Translations under genes and position numbers: made by a program | Shown: positions 3,448-63,755 of the stretch, piece by piece | Position numbering within the stretch: the stretch's first letter is position 1 | How the letters are laid out: each line of letters opens with the position of its first letter | From: Cocleimonas flava | Lineage (GTDB): Bacteria > Pseudomonadota > Gammaproteobacteria > Thiotrichales > Thiotrichaceae | Reading direction: 5' to 3' | DNA length: 64,000 nucleotides | Assembly (NCBI RefSeq): GCF_004339015.1 | Contig: NZ_SMFQ01000004.1 | Coordinates: forward strand, 929,901-993,900 | Notes under the pieces: model-generated | What the model saw: only the letters and a program-made list of their open reading frames with translations | Told to the model about the DNA's origin: nothing | Database searches by the model: none

Positions 3448-3462
3448 GTAAGTAGGGGGGTG
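3448..3462 (+). repeat. Dispersed G6 motif copy 1 (divergent intergenic)
   Basis: GTAAGTAGGGGGGTG on the plus strand, flanked by GAAAAA before and TTTTTC after (within 3436-3470). It sits 66 bp upstream of the mscS start, between the minus-strand tRNA-Val and plus-strand mscS. Confidence 0.85.
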
Positions 3463-3527
3463 TGTTTTTCCATTTACCACGCTATCTGCTACAGTTGCGA
3501 AAATTATTTGCGCCCTTGGGAAATAGA

Positions 3528-4607
3528 ATGGATAACCTAGAACAATACCTTGCTCCTTTATTGGCTTATTTTGATGGTGAACCCTGGCCGCAAGGTATTG
3601 CGATTATGGGAGTGACCTTTCTTTTCGCTTCTCTACTCTCTTGGTTTATTTTTCGTACCTTAAAATTCCTAACCAGCAAAACAAAATCATTTCTTGATGA
3701 TCGTTTATTAGCAATTGCCAGACCACCTATTTACTACTCACTTTTAATGACAGGCTTTTCTGCTGGAGTTAATCGTATGCCTCTCTCAGATAAATTGACC
3801 GATTACCTGATCTTTGGTTTTAAAACCCTAGGCGTTATTATCTGGATGATAGCGTTAGTTAGAGTATCTAAAATTATTCTTCAACAACTGGCATGGGGTG
3901 GCAATAGGAACAACATTAGACTCATTCAACCGCAAACGCTTCCCCTGTTTGATAACGTATCAAAGCTTTTAATTGTCGCCGTAGCCGTTTACATCATTTT
4001 CCAAATATGGGGAATTGATATGACAGCCTGGTTAGCTTCTGCCGGTATCGTAGGCATAGCTGTGGGCTTTGCCGCTAAAGATACCCTTGCCAATCTATTT
4101 TCTGGTGTTTTTATACTCGCAGATACACCTTATAAAATAGGTGACTACATTGTCTTGGATGGCAATCAGCGAGGCAAAGTTACACATATCGGTTTACGTA
4201 GTACGCGTTTAATCACACGAGATGATGTTGAAGTGACAGTTCCAAACTCCATCATGGGAAATAGCAAAGTCACCAATCAGAGTGGTGGCCCTCACCCCAA
4301 ATTTAGAATAAGGGTTCAAGTCGGGGTTGCCTATGGAACTGATATCGACCAAGTCAATGATATCTTAATGAAGGTTGCGGAAGATGAGCCACTCGTCCCT
4401 AAATCACCAGAACCAAGAGTACGTTTTCGTGCTTTTGGGGCATCTAGTCTAGATTTTGAACTGCTTTGCTGGATAGAAAATCCAGAATTAAGGGGCCGAA
4501 CATTACACAAGTTGAATAGTGCTGTTTATAAGAGATTCAACGAAGAAAACATTGAAATCCCCTATTCAAAACAGGATTTATATATTAAAGAACTACCTAA
4601 AACATAA
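3528..4607 (+). CDS. MscS-family mechanosensitive ion channel
   Basis: An inner-membrane channel of the small-conductance mechanosensitive family, which opens under membrane tension to release osmolytes. The 359-residue protein has N-terminal hydrophobic segments (about 24-45, 60-80, 95-115), then a pore helix with VGIAVGFAAKDTLANLFSG, the MscS signature, and the following beta domain (YKIGDYIVLDGNQRGKVTHIG) and mixed C-terminal domain. I chose the ATG at 3528, preceded by GGGAAA, over an in-frame GTG at 3462 inside the dispersed motif, because the extra 22 residues look non-conserved. The channel subtype cannot be told from sequence alone. Confidence 0.92.
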   Translation: MDNLEQYLAPLLAYFDGEPWPQGIAIMGVTFLFASLLSWFIFRTLKFLTSKTKSFLDDRLLAIARPPIYYSLLMTGFSAGVNRMPLSDKLTDYLIFGFKTLGVIIWMIALVRVSKIILQQLAWGGNRNNIRLIQPQTLPLFDNVSKLLIVAVAVYIIFQIWGIDMTAWLASAGIVGIAVGFAAKDTLANLFSGVFILADTPYKIGDYIVLDGNQRGKVTHIGLRSTRLITRDDVEVTVPNSIMGNSKVTNQSGGPHPKFRIRVQVGVAYGTDIDQVNDILMKVAEDEPLVPKSPEPRVRFRAFGASSLDFELLCWIENPELRGRTLHKLNSAVYKRFNEENIEIPYSKQDLYIKELPKT

Positions 4608-4639
4608 GCCTCACGAGGATAAAAATCACTCGTGAGGCT
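4607..4639. terminator. Hairpin between convergent mscS and pilY1
   Basis: An 11-bp perfect inverted repeat (AGCCTCACGAG / CTCGTGAGGCT) with an 11-nt loop lies between the mscS and pilY1 stop codons. There is no strong T-run on either side, so it may be a weak bidirectional terminator or a 3'-end stabiliser. Confidence 0.6.
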
Positions 4640-4671
4640 AGTACTGAATTTACACTATCACTGATCCCAAC

Positions 4672-7600
4672 TTACATTGGGTCACTCCAATAAATGGACT
4701 CTATAGCTTCAACATCCATAGTGCCGACTTCGGTACTCTTTTTACCAATTCGAATATCAACTTCGTGAGAACATTCTCCGTTTTCACAGCTTAATTCATT
4801 GAATACACGCTGAGGCGTTCCTGGGATTTCACTGGCAGATATTGTCTGGAAAACATCATTATCATTAATCACTCCGTTTCCATCCATATCTATACTGGCT
4901 TCACCGGTTAACAGATTCATTGCGTAAATACGCCCCTGAGTTGCCGGAGCAGCACAAGAGTTTATTAACTCACCTGTTGTTAAAACCTTAGGTACTAATG
5001 TAGTGAAAGTGATTGACCCTTCAAAGGTAATTGCAGGTGCCAATACTTTTTCGCCAGATTCAAAGAAATTCACATACCAACCGAGTTTATCGGTCTCTGT
5101 AATCTGCTTACCTTCAAAATCTGAATCCTGTGTAATGCTTTTGGTAAGAGTGGTTCCTGTACCCACAACATCAATTTCAACTTTTGCCAAATCAGAAAGT
5201 TGGATTGGGGTGAAATCATCATCCAACTTATTTAATGGCGATTTATCCAGAATCACAAACATATGATCATTTATTTCTTCATTCATTGGATGAGGTCTCA
5301 TTCCACTTCCAACTGAAACCGTAAACATTGTTTTACCGTTTGATCTGAATGAAGCTACATCTGGCTCATTATAAAACTTACGAGCCGCGGAAGATCCTGC
5401 CGTCCCTAAATCAGCCAACTTGGTTAGTTTAAAGTCTTCAGCATTATTTGATAACGACTCTGTTAGGAAATCAAGTCGCCAAACGCTACCTCCTGTATCT
5501 GCAAAATACATTCGATCAAGGATGTTATTTTTATTTACATCAAGAATTCTTGCGCCACCAGGGAAAGCCTGAGTTACTTTCGCTCCAAGTGTTTCACGCA
5601 TCGACCAAAGTTTATCTCCGGTCTTTGCATCGACAATATAAATATCATCACCCATCGTTGGCGTTTTAGAGATCACGACATCAGCTGGCTCATAATCCTC
5701 GTCATAATCAAGAACAGGATCATTTCCGCCTGCAATAATGACTGCTTCTTTTTTAACGGCACTGCTACCAGAGCCTACTAGAACGTTCGCTAAGTAAGGC
5801 ATCGACCAGCTTTGTCCCATTCGGCTAAACTGACTGTCATCACCGTCAATTTTCCAAAGCATTGTTGGCGTTTGCCCTTTGTGAATATTACTCACATCCA
5901 AGGCATAATATGATTTACCACCGCGACGAAGTCCAAAGTATAAATATACCTTTTCACCTGAATCTACTTCACCATTTGGGTTATCCGGATCATCTTCGTG
6001 CCAGTAACTTATATTGCCATCAATTCCATATTTATGAGGACCTTGTCCGGTGAATTGTGGCTCTATATTTTTTAATAATTCCTTTGGCATAAAGGCAAAT
6101 ATTTCTTCACCAGATGTACTATCAAACACATGTAAATAGCCTTCGTTGGTCGCAGAGAATATATACTGTTTTTTCGCCGCATCGTCTGTAGATTTTTTGT
6201 AGGTAATGATTACAGGTTCGGTATGCAGCATATCTCCCATATGTTTACGCGCAACTCCATGAGGCGTTGCATTACTGTCAAACTGACCATTTTTCCAGCC
6301 ACGAATAAACTGGATTAGCTGAGCGCGGTAAGCTGCTGCTTCAACGGTATTCAAATTTAATTCATCTTTATCGAATAACATTTCCTCAGTGATACCGGTA
6401 TTAGCTACATTGATCTCAGATAATGTATTGCCTGAGACATTCGAATACAGATTACGTATAGCAGGGTTCGTTAACAAACTTGCTGTTCCACCTTGCTGTA
6501 CCACATCACCATCAGGGATTGCGCTTGTTGACCACAAGTCCCAGGCTTCATCTTTAAATAAGCCTAATTCAGTCATGGCACTCGTTAAACCACCATTTCC
6601 ATCTTTACCTTTAATGATTCGGCTATCACCAACATCGTCCAATTTAAACTTCTTTAAGTTACCCGCCCAACGTGAAGAACTGGATTTATCAAATACCGGA
6701 ATGTAAATATCATCTTCATGCTCCAGACCACTTTTCACATTTACACTGTAACCGGGAGATGCTTGAGAACGTGCCTCTTCCGCTATTTCATCTAATGCCT
6801 GTGAAAAGGCATCCGCAAGTTCAGCTTCATTAGTCGCCGAGAAATAACCTTCTTTTTTAGCCGTCTCAGGATCATCTTCCAACGTCACCAGACTTTGTAA
6901 GTATTCTGAGGCTTCAGGTGTAATACCTTCAGAGAAACCAATAACATAAGTATGCAAGAATTGATCTCCATTGACGTTTGGCTGATTATCATGAGTCGCC
7001 AGATATTGCGTTAAATCTGCTCCACAACGCCCACTTCTGAAGCCATGCGTAATGTCACAACTAGATTTGTTTATTAGGCTTTTTACTCTACTATATGAAT
7101 AAGGATCTCGATTTACGCCATTCGAGTATTCCGGCTTGCCATCAGACATCAAAATCATGAAGCTACTCTGACAACCATCTTTCATGGGTGATTCATACTT
7201 AGGTTTTGGTAATGGCGAATCTTTACAAATCGCATAGTAACAAGATGAATTTGTGATAGTGCCATAATCATTGTCTTTACAATATTTACCCGTTGTCGAA
7301 CAACCTGTAGGGTTACCATCTTCATCCGTACCGGTACATGTTGTGGTTCCACCAACCCACGAACTTCTGCATCCCCAATATGACTCAGTCTTACAATTAT
7401 ATTCAGTACCTGCACAATTAGAGGCTAAACCAGGTCCAGACGGATTAAAGCGATCAGCTGGGCATATTTTCCCCCATGTTTCTCCTGCTCTCCAGTCAGC
7501 TATACTATCGTTCCAAACTCTGTATCCAGAAGGTGATGCATCACATGAACCTGAGTCATTCTTTTGATTAACGGGCTCTCCTGCGTAGGTTGAAGGATGT

Positions 7601-8760
7601 GCTGCCCACGTGTAATTTTTTCTCGCATAATCATAACCGTAGTCGACTTCTTCACCTCGGAAATACTGTGACGCTTCATACAAAGCATCAACGATAGGAG
7701 TCATTCCTTTTGCTTCCCAGTCATCGGCAATTTCACTTAAAAAAGTTCTAACCGTGACCGTATCGCTTGGCTCTGGAATATTACTGTAATCCCAACGAAC
7801 TGTTCCATTAAGCATCATTGAGTCTTCTATGATGGGTCTTGCGAGACTGGTAACAGCAGTAATAGGAAACTTAATCCCGTTAGGATAATTTTTTCGCCAG
7901 TTTGAGTTATCACCATAATTCATGATACCTACGCTAAGGTTATCTGGAGCATTCGTCAAAACTGTTCTCAATGCATCCTGCATTACCTGCATACGTGTTT
8001 TCTTACCGGTAACTTCTTCATACGTTATCGTCAATACTGGCGCATCTGAACCATCACCGTTATCTCTTGATTTGGGATTTCTTTCTCCGTAACCAGAAAT
8101 GACAAACACCATCGCATCATTAGGGTCCCAATCACCTCTATCGACAACCAATTGAACCAGACTTTTCAAATCTGGTGTTTGTTGTGCCGCCCCACTCTCA
8201 CCAACAACCCATGGATCAACGGACCAGGAGACTGATGTACCATAAAGCGTTCTGTTTGAAATATTGGTAAGATTATTTTCAAAAGCAGATGGGTTATCAT
8301 GGTTTTGAATTTTAATATCTAACGTAGTAGAGGAAGAACTAGAGTTGCTAGCCGTAAACTGTATAAACGCAGAATCAATTTTTGCACCTTTGGGTATATC
8401 TAAATCCCTAAAGCGTAACCCAACTTTTTGAGTAAATAATCCATCTTTAGTCATTTCTAGAATATTGCCACTATGAGCTGTTCCCCTCAGGCTTGGAAAA
8501 TTATGCTCATCAGCATCTTCGTTTTTATCTATGATGGCACTAGAAACTGTAGTCTTCTCTCCGACGGCAGAGGTTCCATCAACCTCTTCTTTCATACTGC
8601 CCGAGTTATCCATAATAAATAATACGTTATTATTTATTTCACTTTCCGTGTAGAAAACTTCGGTATCATCAGCATACGAGAACCCCATTAGCGCCAGCAT
8701 TGTTATGCCCAATGCACTTATAAAATAAGTTTTTTTCATATTATCTAGATAAATTTTCAT
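4672..8760 (-). CDS. pilY1: PilY1-like type IV pilus tip adhesin, copy 1
   Basis: PilY1 proteins are exported, prime pilus assembly with the minor pilins, and act as adhesin and surface sensor at the pilus tip. The 1362-residue protein has a signal peptide (about 8-30, ending FSYA), then a von Willebrand A-like opening with a MIDAS DNSGS at 51-55. A beta-sandwich-like module (about 90-255) interrupts the VWA domain, which continues with MILMSDGKPEYSN and a Cys-rich insertion near residues 400-520. The C-terminal half is the PilY1 beta-propeller: SATNEGYLHVFDSTSGEE, FGLRRGGKSYYALDVSN, and the calcium-type loop DVNKNNILDRMYFADTGG. A second Asp-rich loop (DMDGNGVINDNDVF) lies near the end. It is last in pilV-pilW-pilX-pilY1. 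Expected in the outer membrane or at the pilus tip. Confidence 0.93.
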   Translation of the reverse strand: MKIYLDNMKKTYFISALGITMLALMGFSYADDTEVFYTESEINNNVLFIMDNSGSMKEEVDGTSAVGEKTTVSSAIIDKNEDADEHNFPSLRGTAHSGNILEMTKDGLFTQKVGLRFRDLDIPKGAKIDSAFIQFTASNSSSSSTTLDIKIQNHDNPSAFENNLTNISNRTLYGTSVSWSVDPWVVGESGAAQQTPDLKSLVQLVVDRGDWDPNDAMVFVISGYGERNPKSRDNGDGSDAPVLTITYEEVTGKKTRMQVMQDALRTVLTNAPDNLSVGIMNYGDNSNWRKNYPNGIKFPITAVTSLARPIIEDSMMLNGTVRWDYSNIPEPSDTVTVRTFLSEIADDWEAKGMTPIVDALYEASQYFRGEEVDYGYDYARKNYTWAAHPSTYAGEPVNQKNDSGSCDASPSGYRVWNDSIADWRAGETWGKICPADRFNPSGPGLASNCAGTEYNCKTESYWGCRSSWVGGTTTCTGTDEDGNPTGCSTTGKYCKDNDYGTITNSSCYYAICKDSPLPKPKYESPMKDGCQSSFMILMSDGKPEYSNGVNRDPYSYSRVKSLINKSSCDITHGFRSGRCGADLTQYLATHDNQPNVNGDQFLHTYVIGFSEGITPEASEYLQSLVTLEDDPETAKKEGYFSATNEAELADAFSQALDEIAEEARSQASPGYSVNVKSGLEHEDDIYIPVFDKSSSSRWAGNLKKFKLDDVGDSRIIKGKDGNGGLTSAMTELGLFKDEAWDLWSTSAIPDGDVVQQGGTASLLTNPAIRNLYSNVSGNTLSEINVANTGITEEMLFDKDELNLNTVEAAAYRAQLIQFIRGWKNGQFDSNATPHGVARKHMGDMLHTEPVIITYKKSTDDAAKKQYIFSATNEGYLHVFDSTSGEEIFAFMPKELLKNIEPQFTGQGPHKYGIDGNISYWHEDDPDNPNGEVDSGEKVYLYFGLRRGGKSYYALDVSNIHKGQTPTMLWKIDGDDSQFSRMGQSWSMPYLANVLVGSGSSAVKKEAVIIAGGNDPVLDYDEDYEPADVVISKTPTMGDDIYIVDAKTGDKLWSMRETLGAKVTQAFPGGARILDVNKNNILDRMYFADTGGSVWRLDFLTESLSNNAEDFKLTKLADLGTAGSSAARKFYNEPDVASFRSNGKTMFTVSVGSGMRPHPMNEEINDHMFVILDKSPLNKLDDDFTPIQLSDLAKVEIDVVGTGTTLTKSITQDSDFEGKQITETDKLGWYVNFFESGEKVLAPAITFEGSITFTTLVPKVLTTGELINSCAAPATQGRIYAMNLLTGEASIDMDGNGVINDNDVFQTISASEIPGTPQRVFNELSCENGECSHEVDIRIGKKSTEVGTMDVEAIESIYWSDPM

Positions 8761-8828
8761 AACGATCAGTACTCAAAATTATTTTCATTGTTTATTTGTA
8801 TTGAATTCACTTTTCTAACGTCAAACGC

Positions 8829-9380
8829 TTAGAGATAACTTCCTTTACTTTTTGAATTAGGCACCATTTTTCCTGCACCTCTGTGATGTTGATCTCTAAC
8901 CGATTTATTTTTATCGCTTGTTTTTCTTATTTGAAAATCATAGAGCCTACAATTAGGAACACCCGGACCAATACTAGAACCCACACCATCTCTTAAACAG
9001 GCATATAGCTCTTCTAAATCGGTAATAATTTCTACAGTCCCAGAAGGCGCTCCAGCAAAACTGAATGTATTATCATCAGTCTCTACACCGTTAACTTTGC
9101 CACCGCCATTTCCAAAAGTAAGTCCTGCATCCTGTCTTTCCAGTGGCGTAATCAACTTAGTTGTTGCGGTAAAATCAGTTAATTCATTTTCTGTTTCGTG
9201 AAAAATGGACATTTGCTGATGGTCGTTACCCGCCACTAAAATATCAAGCACAGAAATTTTTGTTGCAGAGACCGTAATGATTGTCATCAACGTAAGAAAC
9301 ACCAGTGCGGTAAACAGCGTTGCACCCTGTTGTTTTTTCAAAGAATTTAATGACTTGTTATTTTGATTAATTACCAGCAT
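8829..9380 (-). CDS. pilX: PilX-like type IV pilus minor pilin, copy 1
   Basis: A 183-residue protein with a PilX-type N-terminus: a short charged leader, then QQGATLFTALVFLTLMTI, where G19-A20 resembles the prepilin peptidase site and about 20 hydrophobic residues follow. PilX helps form the priming complex with PilV, PilW and PilY1. The reading frame overlaps the end of pilW by 14 bp, indicating translational coupling, and pilY1 follows 68 bp later. The C-terminal part ends in DQHHRGAGKMVPNSKSKGSYL, similar to copy 2. Confidence 0.85.
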   Translation of the reverse strand: MLVINQNNKSLNSLKKQQGATLFTALVFLTLMTIITVSATKISVLDILVAGNDHQQMSIFHETENELTDFTATTKLITPLERQDAGLTFGNGGGKVNGVETDDNTFSFAGAPSGTVEIITDLEELYACLRDGVGSSIGPGVPNCRLYDFQIRKTSDKNKSVRDQHHRGAGKMVPNSKSKGSYL

Positions 9381-10371
9381 TTAATATCCTCCCTGAGCTT
9401 TTATTAGCTAGGTAAACCGTTGTTGTATAAACACGAAACAAACGGCGTAAATCATTACTAGAAATGTTTACTTTTTTATCCAGCACATTATAAAAGGTGA
9501 CCGAGCTATCTTCTTTCAATAAGTTATCATTTGAAGATCTTAGTAGAAGCCCAACCTGAACACTCACTACACTTTCCCACTCACCTCTATCTTCAACTTT
9601 TCCGGCTCGTTGATAATTAATCGAACCGTCATCACGTTGGACACCATAAAGAAACTGAATAGACTCTACATTTTCAATAATAGGTTGAGTTCCTCCACGA
9701 CTTCCGTGACAAAATAAAACTCTGTCGTCATCAACACTAGAAGTGTTCCTTACAACACGAAAAGTACTGTAAATTTTGGCATCTGATGGTTGAAAAGGAG
9801 GAGCAATGCCATTCACTGGATCTGCACTACACGCTACTGCGCGTTGATCTCGTAATGTTCCTCCGCCTGTACAATCAAAATAAACTAAGGCACGCGAATT
9901 ATAATTTGCGGGGGAATTTGTACATTCTGTAACACCTGAAATACAGGGGTTATCCGCTAATGCTGCAACAGTAATTAAATCACTTGCGCCATCTCTGGTT
10001 TTTCTATTCCATGACGGTTGTTGATTTTCTAATGTGACGCCATTTCTGCAAACGGGATTATCCAAAGGACCATCTGCATCAGTGTAAAAAGGCTTATCAA
10101 TAATTTTGCTGTGTATCGAAGGGTACCCGGCATGCATAATAGTTTTTCGCATCAACTCTAGTGCAGATCTTGCATTTCCGTCCATCTCACTAATCGCATC
10201 ACGCATGCGATCACTGTCTTTAGTTCCAACAAAGTTTGTCACTACGCCAGCTAACAGAAATAGGCCGATAACCATAGAAACAAGCAATTCAACCATGGAT
10301 AAGCCCGACTGAGCCTGCAAGCCCGACTTACCTTTAAATAGACTAGAATTATTTTTTATTATTTTTTGCAT
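9367..10371 (-). CDS. pilW: PilW-like type IV pilus minor pilin, copy 1
   Basis: A 334-residue minor pilin. After a short leader, SGLSMVELLVSMVIGLFLLA is the class III signal with Glu at +5 and the N-terminal hydrophobic helix; GTKDSDRMRDAISEMDGNA and LFRVYTTTVYLAN are shared with copy 2. PilW joins PilV, PilX and PilY1 in the complex that primes pilus assembly in the inner membrane. Only 1 bp separates it from pilV. Several Cys residues (VCRNG, NPCISGVTEC, CTGGG) suggest disulfides in the periplasmic part. Confidence 0.9.
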   Translation of the reverse strand: MQKIIKNNSSLFKGKSGLQAQSGLSMVELLVSMVIGLFLLAGVVTNFVGTKDSDRMRDAISEMDGNARSALELMRKTIMHAGYPSIHSKIIDKPFYTDADGPLDNPVCRNGVTLENQQPSWNRKTRDGASDLITVAALADNPCISGVTECTNSPANYNSRALVYFDCTGGGTLRDQRAVACSADPVNGIAPPFQPSDAKIYSTFRVVRNTSSVDDDRVLFCHGSRGGTQPIIENVESIQFLYGVQRDDGSINYQRAGKVEDRGEWESVVSVQVGLLLRSSNDNLLKEDSSVTFYNVLDKKVNISSNDLRRLFRVYTTTVYLANKSSGRILNAGN

Positions 10372-10372
10372 T

Positions 10373-10897
10373 TTAGTTCGGCCTCACCACTATAGAAACT
10401 GATGACCTTTCTTCTTCACCCCCTAAATCTTCATGCGCTTTAGATTCAGTCCATTCAATCGTTATATTGTGATCAACATTCGGAGTTGCACAACCACCGT
10501 CACAAGCAATTTCTAATGTTCCGGCAGGCAATGTATTAACGACTCCACCAACACGTTTTGAACCTTTCCTTACTCCGCACATGACATCCTGGATATCAAA
10601 TCGTGCTGTTTCTGCAGGGGTACAATAAGTGTTACCGCGACATTGTTTTTGCAATGTATTGCAATTAACCGCAGACTCATAAAAACCACCTGCAGCACCC
10701 AAGCGGTTCACACGCATTCGTCCACCAAGTTCTGATGCGAGAATACTTGCCATTGTTCTAGAGTGGGCATTATTTAGCCCTTTGATCGATGCAACCTGCA
10801 TACCACTTAGGCCTAGTAATCCTATCCCAATAACAATCAGGCTAACCATTACTTCTATTAGTGAAAAGCCACGTTGTGGCCGTGCCAATCTGTTCAT
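10373..10897 (-). CDS. pilV: PilV-like type IV pilus minor pilin, copy 1
   Basis: A 174-residue prepilin-like protein beginning MNRLARPQRGFSLIEVMVSL: a basic leader, cleavage before Phe after Gly, Glu at +5 and a hydrophobic helix ending near residue 31. GIGLLGLSGMQVASIKGLNN and the run of paired cysteines are typical of PilV. First gene of the copy 1 operon; the 41-bp repeat array lies upstream. No FimU or FimT gene is next to it in this window. Confidence 0.9.
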   Translation of the reverse strand: MNRLARPQRGFSLIEVMVSLIVIGIGLLGLSGMQVASIKGLNNAHSRTMASILASELGGRMRVNRLGAAGGFYESAVNCNTLQKQCRGNTYCTPAETARFDIQDVMCGVRKGSKRVGGVVNTLPAGTLEIACDGGCATPNVDHNITIEWTESKAHEDLGGEEERSSVSIVVRPN

Positions 10898-11090
10898 AGC
10901 TTAAATCGCTTATTTTTATTATTAGTAAGTCCTATACGAGGACTCATTTGACATTATTTTTATTTATGTCAACCAGATTAACTTATTATGCGAGAAAAGC
11001 AATTTTTTAAGACAATCGGTAAATAAAAAACTACCTTTCGTCAATTTTAAATTGGCAAGAGAAAAAGATAAAAAAGATAAAAAAGAGCTT

Positions 11091-11228
11091 ATAAGTGGGG
11101 AGGTGCCCAATTGCGAATCGAAAAAGGCCTTGTAAGTAGGGGGGTGCCTAATAGCCTATAGAAAAAAGGCCTGTAAGTTGGGGGGTGCCTAGTAGCCTAT
11201 AGAAAAAAGGCCTGTAAGTTGGGGGGTG
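11091..11228 (+). repeat. Tandem array of four 41-bp units carrying the dispersed motif
   Basis: Four motif cores start at 11091, 11132, 11173 and 11214, exactly 41 bp apart. The core in the last three is GTAAGTAGGGGGGTG or GTAAGTTGGGGGGTG; the first is degenerate (ATAAGTGGGGAGGTG). Between cores the units share a segment with GCCTATAG and A6-GGCCT. Read on the minus strand each unit gives AGGC, a 16-nt loop and GCCT followed by T5-T6, a weak terminator-like shape. Confidence 0.9.
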
Positions 11229-15679: not shown

Positions 15680-15742
15680 CCCCTAGGGATTAGGTTATTT
15701 TTATTAATTTGGTCTATATCTAAAATGTATTGAGTCGTTATC

Positions 15743-17238: not shown

Positions 17239-17262
17239 TAATATTGCAATCCTATTTATGGA

Positions 17263-18075: not shown

Positions 18076-18090
18076 GTAAGTAGGGGGGTG
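18076..18090 (+). repeat. Dispersed G6 motif copy (downstream of htpG)
   Basis: GTAAGTAGGGGGGTG on the plus strand followed by CCTTTTT, with an AAAAAAT run before it. It lies beyond the htpG terminator with respect to htpG transcription. Confidence 0.85.
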
Positions 18091-27262: not shown

Positions 27263-27277
27263 CACCCCCCTACTTAC
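27263..27277 (-). repeat. Dispersed G6 motif copy (cmoB-parA intergenic)
   Basis: CACCCCCCTACTTAC on the plus strand, followed by AGGCACTTTTTT and preceded by AAAAAGT. The outer AAAAAGT/ACTTTTT can pair (7 bp) around the motif. It lies between the cmoB stop and the parA start, both on the minus strand. Confidence 0.87.
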
Positions 27278-27324: not shown

Positions 27325-28338
27325 TTAACGGTTACAGATAACGACCGCTCTTTTGGGGGCAGGATATCCTTCTATGGTTTTATTATGATCTTCAGGATCA
27401 AGAAAATCTTGCAGTGACTCAAATTCCATCCAGTCCGTCGAGCGCTGCTCTTCAATACTGGTCTGGTTTATATCGACTACCCGTACATTTTTAAAACCCA
27501 CTCTTTCTAACATTCTCACTAAAAGTGGGGGGGTGGGTAAAAACCAGACATTACGCATTTTCGCATAACGATCTTCGGGCAATAACAACTCATGGCTCTG
27601 TTGATTTGATTCATCTTCGATGACCAATGTTTCTAATACCAATTCGCCATCTGCGCGTAAAAAACTTCTGAGTTCTTGTAAGTGTTCGATGGGGGAAACG
27701 CGATGATACAAAACCCCCATTGAAAATACCGTATCAAAGCCTTTGCCCTGATATACCTTACTGAATGCAGGCAACTCTTCACCTTTGAAGGGTAATAGAT
27801 GTATAGGTTTTTCACCCACGTATTTCTTTAAGGTCTGAAATTGTACAAGAAAAAACTGACTAGGGTCAGCACCAACCACCAACTTTGCACCATCGGCCAA
27901 CATACGCCACATGTGATAGCCGTTACCACAACCGACATCTAAAACTCGTCGATTCTTTAAAGGCGTTAAATGCGATTGAATTCTTTGCCACTTCCAGTCT
28001 GAATGCCATTCTGTATCAATATGGATACCAAATAATTCATAAGGACCTTTGCGCCAGGGGTGTAACTTTTTGAGCAGTGAAAGCAAATACTCACTAGTTT
28101 CCTGATCGCAATCTTCAGCTGAACCAATTCTTACTTTATCCGCGGAAATATCAATACTAGATGCCTGAAGCTCTGGTAGCTGTTGAAGAATGTTTTCCCA
28201 CTCTTCTTTCTTGCCGTGTTGTCGCTTTTCAAAGATAGCAGATAGTTGCTGCGGAAGTACTTCCTGCCATTCGACAAAGTCATTCTCTTCTAAATCAGCA
28301 TACAAGCTTTCAAAATTAACAATCATGTTTTCGGACAT
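27325..28338 (-). CDS. cmoB: tRNA U34 carboxymethyltransferase CmoB
   Basis: Uses carboxy-S-adenosylmethionine made by CmoA to turn 5-hydroxyuridine at tRNA position 34 into 5-carboxymethoxyuridine (cmo5U). 337 residues with the family's N-terminal half (HPWRKGPYELFGIHIDTEW) and the SAM-type fold RRVLDVGCGNGYHMWRMLAD, GADPSQFFLVQF and FSMGVLYHRVSPIEHL. The cmoA gene ends 15 bp upstream, giving a cmoAB operon. A copy of the dispersed motif lies inside at 27521-27535, where it encodes PTPPLL. Confidence 0.97.
   Translation of the reverse strand: MSENMIVNFESLYADLEENDFVEWQEVLPQQLSAIFEKRQHGKKEEWENILQQLPELQASSIDISADKVRIGSAEDCDQETSEYLLSLLKKLHPWRKGPYELFGIHIDTEWHSDWKWQRIQSHLTPLKNRRVLDVGCGNGYHMWRMLADGAKLVVGADPSQFFLVQFQTLKKYVGEKPIHLLPFKGEELPAFSKVYQGKGFDTVFSMGVLYHRVSPIEHLQELRSFLRADGELVLETLVIEDESNQQSHELLLPEDRYAKMRNVWFLPTPPLLVRMLERVGFKNVRVVDINQTSIEEQRSTDWMEFESLQDFLDPEDHNKTIEGYPAPKRAVVICNR
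27521..27535 (+). repeat. Dispersed G7 motif copy inside cmoB
   Basis: AAAAGTGGGGGGGTG on the plus strand. In the cmoB frame (minus strand) it is read ACC CCC CCA CTT TTA, Thr-Pro-Pro-Leu-Leu, in the segment after NVWFLP. A TAAAAA run follows. Confidence 0.85.
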
Positions 28339-30077: not shown

Positions 30078-30092
30078 CACCCCCCACCTTTT
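30078..30092 (-). repeat. Dispersed G6 motif copy (SDR gene-tRNA-Ser intergenic)
   Basis: CACCCCCCACCTTTT on the plus strand (variant with ACC instead of TAC), followed by ATGAGGTTTTTTT. ACCT/AGGT can form a short hairpin in front of the T-run, so this copy resembles a weak terminator. Confidence 0.75.
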
Positions 30093-31292: not shown

Positions 31293-31694
31293 TATAACGA
31301 TCCTGTTTTTATACATTCAAAGTTTAATATTTAGTGTTCAGTTCTATCGTGGCTATCTGCTTATCAAATTTTACAAATCACCATGTGCTCTAAGCTATAC
31401 GCGTCATACACTATGTTGGACGATTAAATCATTCCGAGCGAATGAAAAGCATTCAATTATTCTAATGCAAGCAACTATCTCGACTTATGAGTCTTAAAAA
31501 ACCACTTAAGTTAGCAGGCTATTTGGCCAAAAAAGATTATCTAAGTCACCCCCCTACTTTGGGGCACTTTTTTTATTAATCTTTCTAAGTAATTGAGTTT
31601 ATAAATAAAGTTAAACACGCATTCATCGGATATCTGTATATATGACAACTGTATTAACTTAATATCGTGCCATAACTTAAAATGGACATACCTA
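31293..31694. other. Divergent intergenic region yghU / GAF-EAL gene
   Basis: 402 bp with one dispersed motif copy (31547-31561). Promoters of both flanking genes must lie here, but no site stands out. An ORF overlapping this region from inside yghU has no protein-like composition and is discounted. Confidence 0.5.
31547..31561 (-). repeat. Dispersed G6 motif copy (yghU / GAF-EAL intergenic)
   Basis: CACCCCCCTACTTTG on the plus strand, followed by GGGCACTTTTTTT. CCCC/GGGG and outer AAGT/ACTT can pair, so this copy has a terminator-like shape although it lies between divergent genes. Confidence 0.85.
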
Positions 31695-33025: not shown

Positions 33026-33040
33026 TCCCCCCCTACTTTC
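33026..33040 (-). repeat. Dispersed G7 motif copy (convergent intergenic)
   Basis: TCCCCCCCTACTTTC on the plus strand with seven C; a GCCAC/GTGGC hairpin follows at once. It lies between the GAF-EAL stop and the DsrC-like stop. Confidence 0.8.
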
Positions 33041-34490: not shown

Positions 34491-34505
34491 CCCCCCCCCT
34501 ACTTT
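34491..34505 (-). repeat. Dispersed motif copy with C9 run (convergent intergenic)
   Basis: Nine C followed by TACTTTTGAATG between the lysR and rsuA stop codons. The run is longer than in other copies (C6-C7), and the T-run flank is missing, so this copy looks drifted. Confidence 0.7.
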
Positions 34506-34570
34506 TGAATGATATAACGTTTTTGCACTTTGAAAACATAAATAGAATTTATGCAGGGCCAGGCCTTTAT

Positions 34571-41731: not shown

Positions 41732-42895
41732 GTGGAAACATTAAATATTCGTTCGGGTGAATTCCAGCTGGAACGCCTGCCAAAAATCAAAAACGATACT
41801 TTACGTGGCTGGGATGCCGCCGATGAGCTTTTAATAGAAACAGTGCTTACTGACTATTCTCATCTGTTAGTCACCCCCCCACTTATAGCCAATGATTCTT
41901 TTGGCGCTCTTGCATTAGCCTTTAATGAATACTCGGTGCATAGCTGGTCTGATTCATTTATCTCACACCTTGCCACTACGCATAACCTATCTCTCAATAA
42001 AATCTCTGCTAGTCCCGTATTAATTCCATCGACAAAAGAAGCAGAAGGAAAGTACGATCTGGTTTTGATTAAAATACCCAAGACTTTATCGTTGCTGGAA
42101 GATCAACTGTGCCGACTTAAGCCACATATACACCCTGAAACGGTGATTATCGGCGCAGCCATGAGCAAACATATTCACACCTCGACACTCAAGCTGTTTG
42201 AAAAAATTATCGGTACTACAACGACTTCGCGCGCAACCAAAAAAGCACGATTGATTTATGCACAAAATGACCAGAAAAATAATGTCGTTTCTCCCTACCC
42301 GAAAACCATTAAAGATGAATCATCTGGAATAAATCTACAGAATTTTGCCAATGTGTTTGCCAATGATCATCTGGATATCGGCACACGCTTTTTTCTGGAG
42401 ACAATTAAAAAGCATTTAAATCAACATGGAGAATATGCCGAGCAAGCACCTAATATCATTGATTTAGGCTGCGGTAACGGAATTCTTGGAATTGCGGCGA
42501 AACAATTAATACCCCATGCAAAAATCAGTTTTACTGATGAATCTTACGCTGCAATAGCTTCTGCAAAAATTAACTACAGTAACGAAACAATCGATAAAAA
42601 TACTGACGATGCAGAGTTTTTAATGAGTAACAGCCTTGATCAATATAAAGGTGATACTCCTGACCTAATACTCTGTAACCCGCCCTTTCATCAGGCTCAC
42701 GCCGTCGGCGACCATATTGCCTGGACCATGTTTAAACAAAGCCAGCAAAAGTTACAAAAAAACGGTGAACTCTGGGTAGTCGGAAATCGACACCTTGCCT
42801 ATCACATTAAACTAAAGAAGCTTTTTGGTAATTGCCAGACGGTCGCCAGTAATAAGAAATTTGTGATCTTGGTCGCCACAAAGAATAAAAAATGA
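41732..42895 (+). CDS. rlmG: 23S rRNA (guanine-N2)-methyltransferase RlmG
   Basis: Methylates G1835 of 23S rRNA in E. coli. 387 residues with duplicated Rossmann-type domains as in RlmG/RsmC: an N-terminal non-catalytic half (GWDAADELLIETVL, LVLIKIPKTLSLLEDQL, IHTSTLKLFEKIIG) and a C-terminal catalytic half with IIDLGCGNGILGIAA and the N-methyltransferase motif LILCNPPFHQAHAV. Start is GTG at 41732 after AAGGA. One dispersed motif lies inside (41872-41886, read VTPPLI) and another begins directly after the stop codon. Confidence 0.96.
   Translation: METLNIRSGEFQLERLPKIKNDTLRGWDAADELLIETVLTDYSHLLVTPPLIANDSFGALALAFNEYSVHSWSDSFISHLATTHNLSLNKISASPVLIPSTKEAEGKYDLVLIKIPKTLSLLEDQLCRLKPHIHPETVIIGAAMSKHIHTSTLKLFEKIIGTTTTSRATKKARLIYAQNDQKNNVVSPYPKTIKDESSGINLQNFANVFANDHLDIGTRFFLETIKKHLNQHGEYAEQAPNIIDLGCGNGILGIAAKQLIPHAKISFTDESYAAIASAKINYSNETIDKNTDDAEFLMSNSLDQYKGDTPDLILCNPPFHQAHAVGDHIAWTMFKQSQQKLQKNGELWVVGNRHLAYHIKLKKLFGNCQTVASNKKFVILVATKNKK
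41872..41886 (-). repeat. Dispersed motif copy inside rlmG
   Basis: CACCCCCCCACTTAT on the plus strand followed by AGCC. In frame it encodes Thr-Pro-Pro-Leu-Ile just before the conserved AND(S/A)FGAL segment. Confidence 0.85.
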
Positions 42896-42910
42896 CACCC
42901 CCCACCTTTG
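42896..42910 (-). repeat. Dispersed G6 motif copy abutting the rlmG stop codon
   Basis: CACCCCCCACCTTTG begins at the base after TGA (42893-42895), with AAAAAAT upstream and AGGCATATTTTT downstream. It is the same ACC variant as the 30078 copy. Confidence 0.8.
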
Positions 42911-44649: not shown

Positions 44650-44664
44650 CACCCCCCTACATTG
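44650..44664 (-). repeat. Dispersed G6 motif copy (intergenic, same-strand genes)
   Basis: CACCCCCCTACATTG on the plus strand (ACATT variant), followed by GGGCTTTTTTTT. CCCC/GGGG and AAAG/CTTT can pair, giving a terminator-like hairpin in the plus direction, while both flanking genes read in the minus direction. Confidence 0.82.
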
Positions 44665-45483: not shown

Positions 45484-46683
45484 ATGAAACACGTTCAGAG
45501 TTTACCAGAACCTTCCGCAGATGCCTTGGAACATAGCGAAAAGTTAGTCGCTAACATAAAAAACGCAATCGAAAGCAATGGTGGTAGCATTAGTTTTAAA
45601 CGCTATATGGAAATGGCTTTATACGAACCTTGTTTGGGTTATTACGTCGCAGGCACTCACAAAATTGGTGAACAGGGAGATTTTACAACTGCACCGCAAA
45701 TATCACCGCTATTTTCACAGTGTATTGCGAATCAATGTGCCGAGGTTTTAAAGTCAATATACACAAAAAAAGCCTCCAAAGTGGGGGGGTGCATTTTTGA
45801 ATTTGGCGCAGGCACGGGTATTATGGCTGCCGAAATCCTATTGGAACTTGAAAAGCAAAACAGCTTACCTGAGACTTATTTCATTCTCGATCTGAGTCCC
45901 GAATTGCAACAGCGCCAGAAACAAACGATTGAATCAAAAGCGCCACATTTACTGACCAAAGTCACTTGGTTAACCACCCTGCCCAAACACTTCTCAGGCA
46001 TCGTGTTAGCCAATGAAGTATTAGACGCCATGCCCGTTGATGTATTTACCCAACATGGAGACATCGTCTACGAACATCATGTCATTTGGCAGGATGATGC
46101 GCTTCTCGAACAATTAAGACCTGCGACTGAAACCAATCCGGCACTTCATGATCGCGTATTACGTTTGAATATCCCTAAAGAAGCGACTCCTTACACATCA
46201 GAAATCAATTCACATATAACGCATTGGCTAAAATCAATCGCTGAAATCATAGAAGAAGGATTGGTGCTTTTGATTGACTATGGATACCCACGCAAAGAAT
46301 ATTATTTGGCAGAGCGCAATAAAGGCACCTTGATTTGCCATTATCAGCATTTAGTGAACGAAGCACCATTGCTTAACGTAGGCTTACAAGACATCACTGC
46401 CAACGTTGATTTTACAGCAGTTGCAGAAGCTGCTGACTCCTCTAAATTGGAGGTTGCAGGGTTTACTTCTCAAGCGTGTTTTCTGGCGAATACAGGTTTA
46501 GAAGAATACTTTAAACACGCTTTGGAAAATAATTTAGATGATCAATACACACTCGCACAACAGGTACGTACATTAACGCTCCCCGCAGAAATGGGGGAAC
46601 GTTTTAAATGTATCGGATTAACGAAAAATTATCCACATCAGCTATGCGGCTTTAAAGATTTTGATCAGCGCTATCGACTGTAA
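45484..46683 (+). CDS. MidA/NDUFAF7-family SAM-dependent methyltransferase (COG1565)
   Basis: 399 residues. ISFKRYMEMALYEPCLGYYV and GDFTTAPQISPLFSQCIANQ are the family's opening, then the SAM site FEFGAGTGIMAAEILLEL, LDLSPELQQRQKQTI and VLANEVLDAMPVDVF, then LLIDYGYPRKEYY. Mitochondrial NDUFAF7 methylates an Arg of a complex I subunit; the bacterial substrate is unclear. In bacteria this gene often sits with pteridine reductase, as here. A dispersed motif lies inside, read as KVGGC just before the SAM-binding strand. Confidence 0.92.
   Translation: MKHVQSLPEPSADALEHSEKLVANIKNAIESNGGSISFKRYMEMALYEPCLGYYVAGTHKIGEQGDFTTAPQISPLFSQCIANQCAEVLKSIYTKKASKVGGCIFEFGAGTGIMAAEILLELEKQNSLPETYFILDLSPELQQRQKQTIESKAPHLLTKVTWLTTLPKHFSGIVLANEVLDAMPVDVFTQHGDIVYEHHVIWQDDALLEQLRPATETNPALHDRVLRLNIPKEATPYTSEINSHITHWLKSIAEIIEEGLVLLIDYGYPRKEYYLAERNKGTLICHYQHLVNEAPLLNVGLQDITANVDFTAVAEAADSSKLEVAGFTSQACFLANTGLEEYFKHALENNLDDQYTLAQQVRTLTLPAEMGERFKCIGLTKNYPHQLCGFKDFDQRYRL
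45777..45791 (+). repeat. Dispersed G7 motif copy inside the MidA-like gene
   Basis: CAAAGTGGGGGGGTG on the plus strand, with AAAAAAAGCCTC upstream and CATTTTTG downstream, so the A-run, GCC and T-run elements are all present although this is coding DNA. In frame it encodes Lys-Val-Gly-Gly-Cys. Confidence 0.87.
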
Positions 46684-56765: not shown

Positions 56766-57197
56766 TCACACCCCCCTACTTATAGCCGTTTTTGTGACTT
56801 TAATAACAATTCCCTGGAGCCTCAATGCGACTAAAACGGCATCATGCTGGGATGTATTTAAATGAATACAAAAAGCCCCTTTAAAGTAGCTATGCTGATC
56901 TAAATAACATTGATTGATATTCGGAATTTGCTTCAAGCCTTTGAATACTTTCTTAATCATTTCTGAGACTGGGAAATCCAGAGAATCTACAAAATAGAGA
57001 TTTCGGGTACTACTGACAAAATGGACTTTACCTTCTCGGAGTTTAACGAAAATAGTCCGATTATCTCTCAGCGAGGCAGCTAGTTGGGCAGTGACCCCCT
57101 GATTGCTTTTCGATGAATTCTCTAGGCTTTTGTCTAATTTTTTATCTAAAGGTAGCGTTTCAAAAACACCCGTTTCGAGTAATCCATCTACTTTCAT
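56766..57197 (-). CDS. Hypothetical protein, 143 residues, whose C-terminus is the dispersed motif
   Basis: No family recognised. I start at the ATG at 57197 (MKVDGLLETGVFETLPLDKK), preceded by AAGGA and 13 bp after the stop of the small upstream gene; earlier in-frame starts (57260, 57230) would overlap that gene by up to 50 bp. The protein is soluble, with NRTIFVKLREGKVHFVSSTR and FDSLDF-like beta segments and a C-terminal LRLQGIVIKVTKTA. The last codons (ISRGV-stop) are the dispersed G6 motif itself, so the present C-terminus may have been created by motif arrival. Confidence 0.6.
   Translation of the reverse strand: MKVDGLLETGVFETLPLDKKLDKSLENSSKSNQGVTAQLAASLRDNRTIFVKLREGKVHFVSSTRNLYFVDSLDFPVSEMIKKVFKGLKQIPNINQCYLDQHSYFKGAFCIHLNTSQHDAVLVALRLQGIVIKVTKTAISRGV
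56769..56783 (-). repeat. Dispersed G6 motif copy forming the 3' end of a gene
   Basis: CACCCCCCTACTTAT on the plus strand, followed by AGCCGTTTTTG and with CACA/TGTG flanks. It encodes the last residues (ISRGV) of the 143-residue protein; the TGA stop is at 56768-56766. Confidence 0.85.
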
Positions 57198-57508: not shown

Positions 57509-57523
57509 CACCCCCCTACTTAC
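57509..57523 (-). repeat. Dispersed G6 motif copy (intergenic, same-strand genes)
   Basis: CACCCCCCTACTTAC on the plus strand followed by AGGCAGTTTTTTTT, the full extended form. It lies between the tgpA stop and the start of the 83-residue gene, both on the minus strand. Confidence 0.87.
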
Positions 57524-60732: not shown

Positions 60733-60768
60733 TATTATTTATGTCAGTAGAAAATTGACAGATGCCAA

Positions 60769-61764: not shown

Positions 61765-61839
61765 GTGTACGTTGGATTATCAATAATCGCGAAAAAATAC
61801 GATGAAGTGTAATGTTTGATTTCATGCGATATTCATAGT

Positions 61840-61854
61840 CACCCCCCTACTTTG
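61840..61854 (-). repeat. Dispersed G6 motif copy (moxR / umuD divergent intergenic)
   Basis: CACCCCCCTACTTTG on the plus strand followed by GGGCGTTTTTTT. CCCC/GGGG can pair. It lies between divergent moxR and umuD. Confidence 0.85.
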
Positions 61855-62057
61855 GGGCGTTTTTTTAAAGTACGTTTATTCTGTTTAGAGTAGACAGAAC
61901 TCAATTACATACTTGTTTCACTGTGACTGTCACTACACGCCAATAAAGTCTCGCTAGCGTTTCTGCTTAGTCCTTTTCTTCTGAAAACAAATCCCAGTAC
62001 ACTTATGTTCGCTTTTTGTTCGCTTTTTATTTATTTTCTGCTAAGCTTATTTTTACT

Positions 62058-62489
62058 ATGACAAACGAAATAATAGAAATAAAGCGATTAAGCCCATCTG
62101 CCAAACCTGTATTGATTCCGCTCTATGGCAATAAAGTACGCGCCGGTTTTGCCTCGCCCGCCGATGATTTTATCGAGGAATACCTGGACCTCAATAAACT
62201 ACTCATCAAACATCAGGAGGCAACATTTTTTGTGCGTGTTGTTGGGCGTTCGATGGTTAACGTCGGTATTTACCCGAATGATATTTTGATCGTTGATCGC
62301 TCTCTTGAAGCATCCAATAGGGATATTATCATCGCGGTGGTTGATGGCGAAACCACGGTGAAACGCCTCATTACCAACCACCCCAATGGCATTTTATTAA
62401 AAGCGGAAAGTAAGCATCATAAAGACATTCCCGTGCATGGAGAGCTGCATGTGTGGGGCGTGGTCACCGCGACTATTCATCAATATTAG
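62058..62489 (+). CDS. umuD: UmuD-like SOS protein (self-cleaving accessory subunit of Pol V)
   Basis: 143 residues. The cleavage site is Ala-Gly in KVRAGFASPADDF near residue 24-25, followed by EEYLDLNKLLIKHQEATFFV, catalytic Ser in VVGRSMVNVGIYPNDIL (about 60) and Lys in VVDGETTVKRL (about 97). RecA-stimulated self-cleavage gives the active form that joins UmuC. ATG at 62058 chosen; the upstream in-frame start adds a non-conserved hydrophobic leader. Followed by umuC 12 bp later. A near-miss LexA half-site pair is noted under rejected items. Confidence 0.95.
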   Translation: MTNEIIEIKRLSPSAKPVLIPLYGNKVRAGFASPADDFIEEYLDLNKLLIKHQEATFFVRVVGRSMVNVGIYPNDILIVDRSLEASNRDIIIAVVDGETTVKRLITNHPNGILLKAESKHHKDIPVHGELHVWGVVTATIHQY

Positions 62490-62501
62490 TCCGTATAAAT
62501 C

Positions 62502-63755
62502 ATGTTTGCTATTGTCGACTGCAATAACTTTTATGCCTCCTGCGAGCGATTGTTCAGGCCAGAATTAGAAGGCCAACCGATTGTAGTGTTATCAAATAAT
62601 GATGGCTGTGTAATTGCCCGAAGCAACGAGGCAAAGGCGCTGGGTATTCCCATGGGTGCACCCGAATTTAAATTTCGACAAGAAATGAAGCAGAAAGGTA
62701 TTCATGTATTTTCCTCTAACTACCCACTTTACGGTGATTTATCCGCACGCGTTATGAGCGTATTGGAATACCTGTCACCCAATATCGAAATCTACTCAAT
62801 CGATGAAGCCTTTGCCGATATGCGTGGTTTTAATCATTTCGATTTAAACACTCACGGTTTGGAGGTTAGAGAGAAAATACTCAAATGGATCGGAATGCCA
62901 GTATCGATTGGTTTTGGTAGCACCAAAACGCTGTCGAAGATTGCCAATCGCGTAGCAAAAAAAACGCCTAAAAGTGGGGGGGTGTTCGTTTTTGATAGCC
63001 AGCAACAAATAGACAATGTACTTAAAAAAATAGCCATTGGTGATGTCTGGGGCATAGGACGAAAATGGTCGATGAGTCTCCAGCATTGTGGTATTCATTC
63101 TGCGTACGATTTGGCACAAGCAGATAGCACCTGGATCCGGCGCAAATACAGTGTGGTTATGCAGCGCACGCAACGTGAACTAAACGGCGAAAATTGCATT
63201 TCTATCGAGGAACTACCGGAAAAGAAACAGCTACTCGTTTCTCGTAGCTTTAAAAACAAAATCACCAACTATCAACTGTTACGCTCGCTAATCTCCGGCT
63301 ATGTCGCCAGAGCCTGTGAAAAGCTGAGAAAACAACACAGCGTGGCCAGCAGCATTCAGGTATTCATTCGCACCAGCCCGTTCAATGATAGCCCGAAATA
63401 CAGCAATGCAGGAACTGTAAGCCTAAACCAATACTCTGCAGACACTGCCACGTTTATCAAGATGGCAACCTACATTCTGGAGAATATTTACAAAGACGGA
63501 TACGAATATCAAAAAGGGGGCATCATGATTCTAGACATAATCCCCGACAGCAAACAGCAACTGTGTTTATTCCAACCCGAAAAATACGATAGCAACGCAC
63601 GCCAGCGCATGAAACTCATGGATCATGTGAACAATAAATATGGCAGGCAAACCTTAAGGCTAGGATCTGAAAGCAAGAAGCGCTGGTATATGAATCAGAA
63701 TCTATTATCCCCGAAGTACACGACAAGCTGGAATGATATTTTAAGGGTTAAGTAA
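62502..63755 (+). CDS. umuC: UmuC, catalytic subunit of error-prone DNA polymerase V
   Basis: 417 residues, Y-family polymerase (E. coli UmuC 422). It has MFAIVDCNNFYASCERLFRP with the first catalytic Asp, SIDEAFADMRG with the Asp-Glu pair, GFGSTKTLSKIANRVAKKTP, VWGIGRKWSMSL, and the UmuC C-terminus LLSPKYTTSWNDILRVK. It carries out translesion synthesis with UmuD. A dispersed motif lies inside at 62970-62984, read KSGGVFVF, in a place where E. coli UmuC has TGGVV. Confidence 0.96.
   Translation: MFAIVDCNNFYASCERLFRPELEGQPIVVLSNNDGCVIARSNEAKALGIPMGAPEFKFRQEMKQKGIHVFSSNYPLYGDLSARVMSVLEYLSPNIEIYSIDEAFADMRGFNHFDLNTHGLEVREKILKWIGMPVSIGFGSTKTLSKIANRVAKKTPKSGGVFVFDSQQQIDNVLKKIAIGDVWGIGRKWSMSLQHCGIHSAYDLAQADSTWIRRKYSVVMQRTQRELNGENCISIEELPEKKQLLVSRSFKNKITNYQLLRSLISGYVARACEKLRKQHSVASSIQVFIRTSPFNDSPKYSNAGTVSLNQYSADTATFIKMATYILENIYKDGYEYQKGGIMILDIIPDSKQQLCLFQPEKYDSNARQRMKLMDHVNNKYGRQTLRLGSESKKRWYMNQNLLSPKYTTSWNDILRVK
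62970..62984 (+). repeat. Dispersed G7 motif copy inside umuC
   Basis: AAAAGTGGGGGGGTG on the plus strand with AAAAAAAACGCC upstream and TTCGTTTTTG downstream. In frame it encodes Lys-Ser-Gly-Gly-Val. The A-run, GCC and T-run of the intergenic form are all kept. Confidence 0.88.

Follow-up and report, generated by a model that had tools for sequence, protein, structure and literature searches.

DNA uptake sequences have been described, in the papers seen, for the Pasteurellaceae and the Neisseriaceae. ComP is the established receptor in Neisseria, and a minor pilin has been predicted to be the receptor in the Pasteurellaceae (PMC12616744, available excerpt). In the accessible parts of the respective papers, classical uptake sequences are described as having no orientation bias (PMC1939737), and close, oppositely directed uptake sequences are said to form terminators in other bacteria (PMC1852404). 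Here, a dispersed G-run motif with the core AAGTRGGGGGGTG is described from Cocleimonas flava, which belongs to the Thiotrichaceae (Thiotrichales, Gammaproteobacteria). It was noticed in a stretch of 64 kb (the window, positions 929901-993900 of contig C3) by a sequence-only reading, which proposed a role like that of an uptake signal; the whole genome has 4.49 Mb in 10 contigs. The motif is probably the DNA uptake signal of Cocleimonas, the best explanation of the data, to which we give a probability of about 0.72. A literature search returned no paper for AAGTAGGGGGGTG, and another combining "uptake sequence" with "Thiotrichales" returned none.

According to this reading, the motif would be a non-palindromic tag by which the pilus-based DNA receptor of a competent cell would prefer DNA of its own kind. 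A minor pilin would recognize the tag, and tagged DNA would be taken up preferentially. Copies would arise in place by point mutation, and they would be kept and spread through biased uptake and recombination. Species would shift the tag to new dialects, retaining the layout of an A-tract, a second A-run, the G-run and a T-rich end. One spelling, AAAGTAGGGGGGTG, which is similar to KOPS (FtsK orienting polar sequences), would be removed where it points away from dif, and lagging copies would take other spellings.

Abundance, dialects and origin of the motif

The exact core occurs 879 times in the whole genome (260 forward and 619 reverse; 196 per Mb), and the reversed pattern once. A sample of 40 stretches and the window (0.85 Mb in total; eight of the stretches were picked near listed matches) was analysed more closely. 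The copies in this sample are mostly perfect: 184 are exact, 36 have one mismatch and 34 have two, compared with 1, 15 and 90 for the reversed control. In a k-mer scan blind to the motif, its pieces rank first (CCCCCCTACTT is found 168 times against 0.11 expected), and in 20 stretches chosen without regard to matches (400 kb) the same k-mer occurs 72 times against 0.05 expected, along with 81 exact cores. The enrichment is strong against Markov, shuffle and reversed controls, as the sequence-only reading had supposed. The extended form that it had described, with an A-run, GCC, the core and a T-run, is borne out by the sample alignments, whose consensus is an A-tract, two bases, gCCt, one base, aAAGTA, GGGGGGTG, one base and cttt. 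A variant, AAGGTGGGGGGTG, has 17 copies in the sample beside the 184 exact ones. Copies are spaced more evenly than random, with a median gap of 3017 against 2457 and 14% against 24% of gaps below 1 kb. At core position 5, G is found in 17 of 25 coding copies and A in 151 of 174 non-coding ones; AAGTAG contains the stop TAG in one frame.

Twelve Cocleimonas genomes, that of the window (G000) and its relatives G001-G011, form the genus set. Among 57 genomes (its own and 56 relatives), six have the core in hundreds of copies, all of them Cocleimonas (G000 879, G007 913, G003 651, G011 620, G008 289 and G006 237), and the other 51 have at most four. Among 369 genomes of the class, only G000 has more than two. 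The hundreds of copies anticipated beyond the window are there, and the refuting outcome of a motif confined to the window was not seen. When a longer form of the motif was looked for in a named genome collection, by a search that may skip entries for the genome of the window, the 36 matching stretches were all from "Uncultured Cocleimonas sp. isolate 4-1410". A collection of 2.9 million virus contigs gave 24 stretches with one match each, so that nothing points to a repeat carried by viruses.

When stretches sampled from the relatives were scanned for k-mers, other dialects of the core came to light. The scans of G007 are again headed by pieces of the motif, and that of G006 by its dialect form. 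A second core, GGGGGGATGGGT, is found 657 times in G002 and 618 times in G009, and at most twice in the other 55 of the 57 genomes. A third, AAAAANAGGGGGGGTGG, is found 219 times in G010, 19 times in G009 and 13 times in G002, and at most four times in the other nine of the genus set. In all, six genomes of the genus use the first core, two the second and one the third, and in three (G001, G004 and G005) k-mer scans of the samples gave no similarly strong motif. For six other genera (G013-G018), small samples gave no G-run motif. When the nine carriers were aligned on the G-run, a similar layout was found: an A-rich tract that lies some 14-19 bp ahead of the G-run, another A-run adjoining, at least six G, TG or ATGGG, and mostly T-rich sequence. 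The first A-tract is clear in seven of the nine, weak in G011 and unreadable in G008 (5 copies). The letters between these blocks differ in each carrier (G006 has GGAGAAAA...AAAAAGtgGGGGGGTGTACTTT, an approximate consensus from 22 copies), and most dialects retain AGGG within the motif. Across the genus there are three core dialects on a similar layout. In trees of ComEC (11 of the 12 genus genomes) and CmoB (10 of the 12), G000, G007, G011, G008 and G003 fall into supported clades, G002 groups with G009, and G001 groups with G004, the motif having been seen in neither of these last two. No place is supported for G006 (a user of the first core), for G010 or for G005. As far as these gene sequences go, the dialects track the trees where these are resolved, the places of G006 and G010 being weak.

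Other repeats were met in the same samples. A dispersed TCGTGCAAAGGTCTCA repeat, sometimes in inverted pairs and perhaps a transposon end, occurs in G004 (L099-L104) and G001 (L109-L112), both without the motif. Many GGGGGGATGGGT copies of G002 adjoin CAGAAGACAGAGGACAGA-like simple repeats (L139-L141, L060). In G014, of another genus, repeated 11-mers such as TGATTGTAACT (8 in 60 kb) head the k-mer scan (L217-L219).

The origin of copies can be followed at orthologous sites. In cmoB, the copy shared by G000 and G007 stands where relatives encode D, N, A or G, without a gap against seven orthologues aligned in frame, all lacking the motif (the row of G008 is out of frame at the site and was excluded). 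In umuC, a copy common to G000 and G007 is ungapped against three orthologues without the motif, and the amino acids differ. In the two genes compared, then, coding copies are missing from orthologues, as had been predicted, and were made by substitution. G000 and G007 were further compared over 29 aligned blocks (71 kb, duplicate loci excluded), with an overall identity of 87%. Ten of 14 G000 copies are kept, four are substituted and none is lost through a gap. At the 15 sites with a copy in either genome, the core has 10 mismatches in 195 positions and no gap column, and the flanks have 171 in 1306 with 82 gap columns (core against flanks, p = 9e-4). To judge from these alignable sites (two genes, 15 sites), gain and loss are by point change with a conserved core, not by insertion.

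Positions were counted for 201 copies of the sample (184 exact and 17 AAGGTGGGGGGTG), with genes called by a simple in-house script. Twenty-five are genic, 86 lie in same-strand gaps, 54 in convergent gaps, 23 in divergent gaps and 13 at stretch ends; 163 of the 188 classified copies are intergenic and 25 (13%) are in genes. Density per kb is 0.04 in genes, and 1.02, 3.26 and 0.72 in same-strand, convergent and divergent gaps, respectively. Of the copies in same-strand gaps, 44 have the G strand in the mRNA and 42 the C strand; their median distance is 64 bp from the stop upstream and 178 bp from the start that follows. It had been claimed that copies occur on both strands, in all types of gap and in genes, which holds (25 coding, 163 intergenic); a tie to transcript ends in one direction was not seen (44 against 42). 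Close inverted pairs hold 16 of 199 copies; seven pairs have their A-tracts facing each other, all within 120 bp, and one pair has its cores facing. When three single copies were folded on both strands (six folds), none folded better than shuffles (z from -0.94 to 0.93). A terminator role is plausible for paired copies, in line with what PMC1852404 reports for other uptake sequences, but does not explain the single ones. A candidate RNA stem pairing CCY with the G-run was abandoned, as CCY is not conserved in G003, G006 and G011.

Polarity of one spelling and its proposed link to KOPS

Replication arms were assigned from GC skew of the sampled stretches and a dif-like site with one mismatch at C2:116878. 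Skew on C2 is positive as far as 120 kb and negative from 200 kb onwards. C1 has negative skew as far as 0.92 Mb, apart from one stretch at 520 kb that is weakly exceptional, and positive skew from 1.04 Mb onwards. The origin is likely between these two positions of C1 and was set at C1:1.0 Mb, giving arms of about 2.2 Mb each; C3 and C4 were oriented by skew alone. Eight C1 stretches chosen near forward matches were excluded from the polarity counts.

The spelling AAAGTAGGGGGGTG (A-AAGTA, here the A/A form) accounts for 405 of the 879 exact copies, and other forms for 474. In the sample, the A/A form is on the leading strand in 70 copies and on the lagging strand in 3, against 43 and 34 for the other spellings, among which AAGGTGGGGGGTG is included (p = 3e-9). 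A single stretch next to the origin holds all three exceptions. If an origin zone is left out (C1 0.59-1.075 Mb, its limits drawn after it had been seen where the A/A form is mixed), the ratio is 68:0 against 40:34 (p = 2e-12), and for non-coding copies alone it is 69:3 against 35:23 (p = 4e-7). Genome-wide, 51 A/A copies are forward and 354 reverse, compared with 209 and 265, by subtraction, for the rest (p = 2e-25). Among the matches listed, the A/A copies of C1 begin with 33 on the minus strand, followed by 43 of mixed strand (18 plus and 25 minus) and finally 24 on the plus strand, and at most nine forward A/A copies lie outside C1. In the sample, the short piece of arm to the left of dif has five forward A/A copies; together with the scarcity of forward copies elsewhere, this places a switch of orientation between C2:116.3 and 200 kb. 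The A-tract, GCC and T-run are present in lagging copies just as in leading ones.

Such polarity is reported to be absent from classical uptake sequences (PMC1939737), so that a second constraint must act. The uptake-signal reading is partly supported, by hundreds of copies, a conserved extended form, dialects, an origin by substitution and ComEC/ComEA; the arm polarity of one spelling had not been foreseen. Mutational strand bias was considered as the cause and rejected. The G excess of the leading strand predicts lagging copies richer in C, and general mutational trends would make them richer in A; in fact, lagging copies carry T at -1 and more G at position 5. In the relatives, copies were scored as same or opposite pairs within stretches, pairs which are not independent. 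The A/A form gave 17:0 in G011 (others 6:6) and 8:2 in G003 (others 1:0), and the non-A/A copies of G006 gave 16:11. The other dialects have no overall co-orientation (G009 27:31, G010 9:9, G002 8:7).

The motif contains AAGTAGGG, which has six of the eight letters of the KOPS octamer GGGNAGGG and differs in the first two; the octamer itself is not part of it. AAGTGGGG and AAGGTGGG are without the A of the octamer. Outside the motif, GGGNAGGG is leading in 16 cases and lagging in one, compared with 60% for GGGG alone, and AAGTAGGG, at 7:2, is too rare to tell. This resemblance suggests a polar veto on one spelling: most likely, AAAGTAGGGGGGTG is nearly excluded from the lagging strand since it is similar to KOPS and would misdirect FtsK. 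A polar-octamer family RRNAGGGS appeared in no paper found by literature search. Another oligomer, GCGTGCG, is found outside the motif at 48:1 on the leading strand, in diverse contexts of the sample (eight places in the window, and L006 and L091). It is a candidate for the Chi sequence of this genome, or for another of its polar oligomers; the E. coli Chi octamer gave 18:11.

Copies within the window

The window has 12 exact copies of AAGTRGGGGGGTG. Allowing up to three mismatches, 30 matches were found against 13.6 expected, a number reached by none of 100 shuffles. The copies and the pilin operons are as follows.

3450..3462, plus strand: exact copy, T/A form, in a gap between divergent genes
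4672-10897 and 11885-17808: adjacent PilV/PilW/PilX operons, each with a very large downstream gene
11079..11228, plus strand: tandem array of four units with a period of 41 bp, cores at 11093, 11134 (exact), 11175 and 11216
18078..18090, plus strand: exact copy, T/A form, in a same-strand gap
27263..27275, minus strand: exact copy, T/A form, in a same-strand gap; in G007 one core substitution, ungapped
27523..27535, plus strand: exact copy, A/G form, within cmoB (27325-28338, minus strand); kept in G007
30078..30090, minus strand: variant AAGGTGGGGGGTG
31547..31559, minus strand: exact copy, A/A form, on the leading strand
33026..33038, minus strand: copy with two mismatches, in a convergent gap
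34492..34504, minus strand: copy with one mismatch, in a convergent gap, attached to a second dispersed repeat
41872..41884, minus strand: exact copy, T/G form, within an rlmG-like gene (41732-42895, plus strand)
42896..42908, minus strand: variant AAGGTGGGGGGTG, immediately past the rlmG-like gene
44650..44662, minus strand: copy with one mismatch
45779..45791, plus strand: exact copy, A/G form, within a gene at 45484-46683 (plus strand)
56769..56781, minus strand: exact copy, T/A form
57509..57521, minus strand: exact copy, T/A form
61840..61852, minus strand: exact copy, A/A form, on the leading strand
62972..62984, plus strand: exact copy, A/G form, within an umuC-type polymerase gene (62502-63755, plus strand); common to G007

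All 19 copies first listed are present, 12 exact and seven with one or two mismatches, and their split into eight plus and 11 minus is correct. Most of their positions agree; plus-strand starts are two bases higher here, and 34491 becomes 34492. The list had overlooked 11093, the fourth tandem unit, and the weaker matches at 13017, 40836 and 50713. The units of the array are arranged head to tail between two minus-strand genes, with a PilV-type operon on one side and a DUF4124 gene on the other, and the copies at 11175 and 11216 are AAGTTGGGGGGTG. The best model for the rlmG-like gene scores under its curated cut-off. The second dispersed repeat, TTTACGTTTT-spacer-AAAACGTAATATCATTCA, abuts some of the motif copies, or near-copies, on the side of the A-tract (window about 34506-34550; L002 8495; L008 2994 and 17378; L088 4607). 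At gathering scores, Rfam gave two tRNAs and nothing else.

The two minor-pilin operons that had been reported are confirmed. The large gene downstream of the first (1362 aa) matches PilY1, and that of the second encodes 1264 aa. These pilins are candidates for the receptor by category only and prove nothing by themselves; when the sample was searched for prepilin-like frames with a strict pattern, the only matches were two of the window's own pilins. Of the com genes, ComEA is matched in all 12 genus genomes, and so is ComEC, 11 matches being over the cut-off and that of G003 being a fragment.

Weighing the explanations

The near orientation-neutral half of the copies, dialects with a shared layout, change in place and the lack of a link to transcription are as uptake sequences show. 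Several observations weigh against this explanation. The density of 196 copies per Mb is low beside the 5918 copies in 2.4 Mb of Kingella oralis (PMC3630211, in the part available). Only 25 of 188 copies are genic, compared with 65% in Haemophilus influenzae and 35% in Neisseria gonorrhoeae, and 405 of 879 copies are orientation-biased, unlike classical uptake sequences (both from the accessible part of PMC1939737). Even the other 474 are mildly uneven genome-wide (209 forward, 265 reverse, p = 0.011). The spellings are not separated in G007 (A/A 24:10, others 10:5), and the G002 copies with A before the G-run may be co-oriented (6:1). The effect of the base before the core (A against T) is unexplained by the canonical KOPS octamer, and is weakly echoed outside the motif (AAAGNAGG 84/48, TAAGNAGG 20/26, p = 0.02). 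ComEC and ComEA are equally matched in the three genomes in which no motif was seen, and thus do not discriminate; their families also match control genomes such as E. coli. Finally, uptake, binding and the receptor step are predictions.

The polarity may alternatively be taken as the whole function, the motif being a signal of chromosome organisation only, a long pointer of the type of KOPS or AIMS (architecture imparting sequences) for FtsK or another arm-reader, with non-polar spellings decayed or tolerated. The 70:3 ratio of the A/A form (68:0 outside the post hoc origin zone), the orientation blocks of C1, the switch between C2:116.3 and 200 kb near the dif-like site at 116.9 kb, the 16:1 ratio of GGGNAGGG outside the motif and the AGGG kept in most dialects all fit such a pointer. 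However, 474 of 879 copies have other forms, near symmetric in the sample (43:34), lagging copies still bear the A-tract, GCC and T-run, and the non-A/A copies of G006 stand at 16:11. Overall co-orientation is missing in the dialects of G009, G010 and G002, though the G002 copies with A before the G-run are 6:1, and KOPS is an octamer that requires no extended consensus. A pointer alone is therefore improbable. Slightly less probable is that the motif binds a chromosome protein indifferent to orientation, of the nucleoid or domain-forming type, with which dialects would co-evolve. The intergenic preference, the spacing more even than random and the two orientations suit this idea, but the site is not palindromic, dialect change and in-place gain and loss better fit molecular drive by uptake, and we know of no chromosome protein with such an orientation-neutral site.

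An RNA 3'-end element or intrinsic terminator is very unlikely. It would account for the top density in convergent gaps (3.26 per kb) and for the seven pairs within 120 bp with facing A-tracts (compare PMC1852404, in the part available); in same-strand gaps, however, the two strands are on the mRNA almost equally (44 G, 42 C), single copies gave no fold signal (three copies, z from -0.94 to 0.93), G003, G006 and G011 have not retained the CCY half of the stem, and 25 of 201 copies are in genes. The least probable is a small mobile repeat, either a repetitive extragenic palindromic (REP) sequence moved by a REP-associated tyrosine transposase (RAYT) or a miniature inverted-repeat transposable element (MITE). 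High copy number, the one 41-bp tandem array, some copies joined to the second repeat, and Y1 transposase (PF01797) matches in G007 and three other-dialect genomes speak for it. Nonetheless, the orthologous sites compared differ by substitution with an ungapped core. The PF01797 family is matched in G007 and in all six genus genomes without the first core, three of other dialects and three in which no motif was seen, and has no match in G000 or in four of the five others with the first core, that is, in five of the nine dialect carriers and five of the six that use this core. With ungapped sites and no Y1 match in G000, both REP/RAYT and MITE readings were rejected as a poor fit.

With the uptake reading thus preferred, a further proposal is more tentative, and we would place it short of even odds: the Thiotrichales may have a family of uptake sequences that evolved independently, the third such family, with a tag that conflicts with the segregation code. 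The KOPS-like spelling would then be tolerated solely in the orientation that leads to dif, and the main FtsK pointers might be the 405 polar copies. If true, one sequence would identify a cell's own DNA on the outside and give direction on the inside, and the spelling of each copy would tell something of its strand. The Thiotrichales case would be unrelated to those of Pasteurellaceae and Neisseriaceae. Several dialects in one genus, together with relatives in which none was seen, would make an independent case for testing how such signals arise, how they spread and how they split species. In the arm-specific spelling, a conflict between two DNA-reading systems seems to have been recorded naturally, and this spelling would amount to a sequence test, in a living genome, of the letters used by the arm-reading system.

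Among known systems, the uptake signal sequence (USS) of Haemophilus and other Pasteurellaceae is similar in its short non-palindromic core, its hundreds of copies or more, nearby A/T tracts, presence on both strands and close opposite pairs. Its core, AAGTGCGGT, begins with AAGT as that of Cocleimonas does. The cores otherwise differ, the main tract of the USS is on the other side of the core, and in Cocleimonas copies are mostly intergenic, one spelling is polar by replication arm and uptake is predicted. The DNA uptake sequence (DUS) of the Neisseriaceae likewise has dialects tracking phylogeny, some relatives with none, and a constant inner core, here the G-run (PMC3630211, available part); its sequence is unrelated and belongs to another bacterial class, its receptor is known for Neisseria (ComP), and density is lower in Cocleimonas. 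REP sequences of RAYT also have hundreds of intergenic copies, whereas the Cocleimonas motif is not palindromic, has no insertion signature and comes with no Y1 match in the genome of the window. KOPS and AIMS share with the A/A form the leading-strand orientation that switches near dif and is mixed near the origin; here, in contrast, just one spelling of a long motif is polar, and near symmetry holds for the other half of its copies. With 13% of copies in genes and one polar spelling, the motif would be a variant, not a copy, of known uptake sequences.

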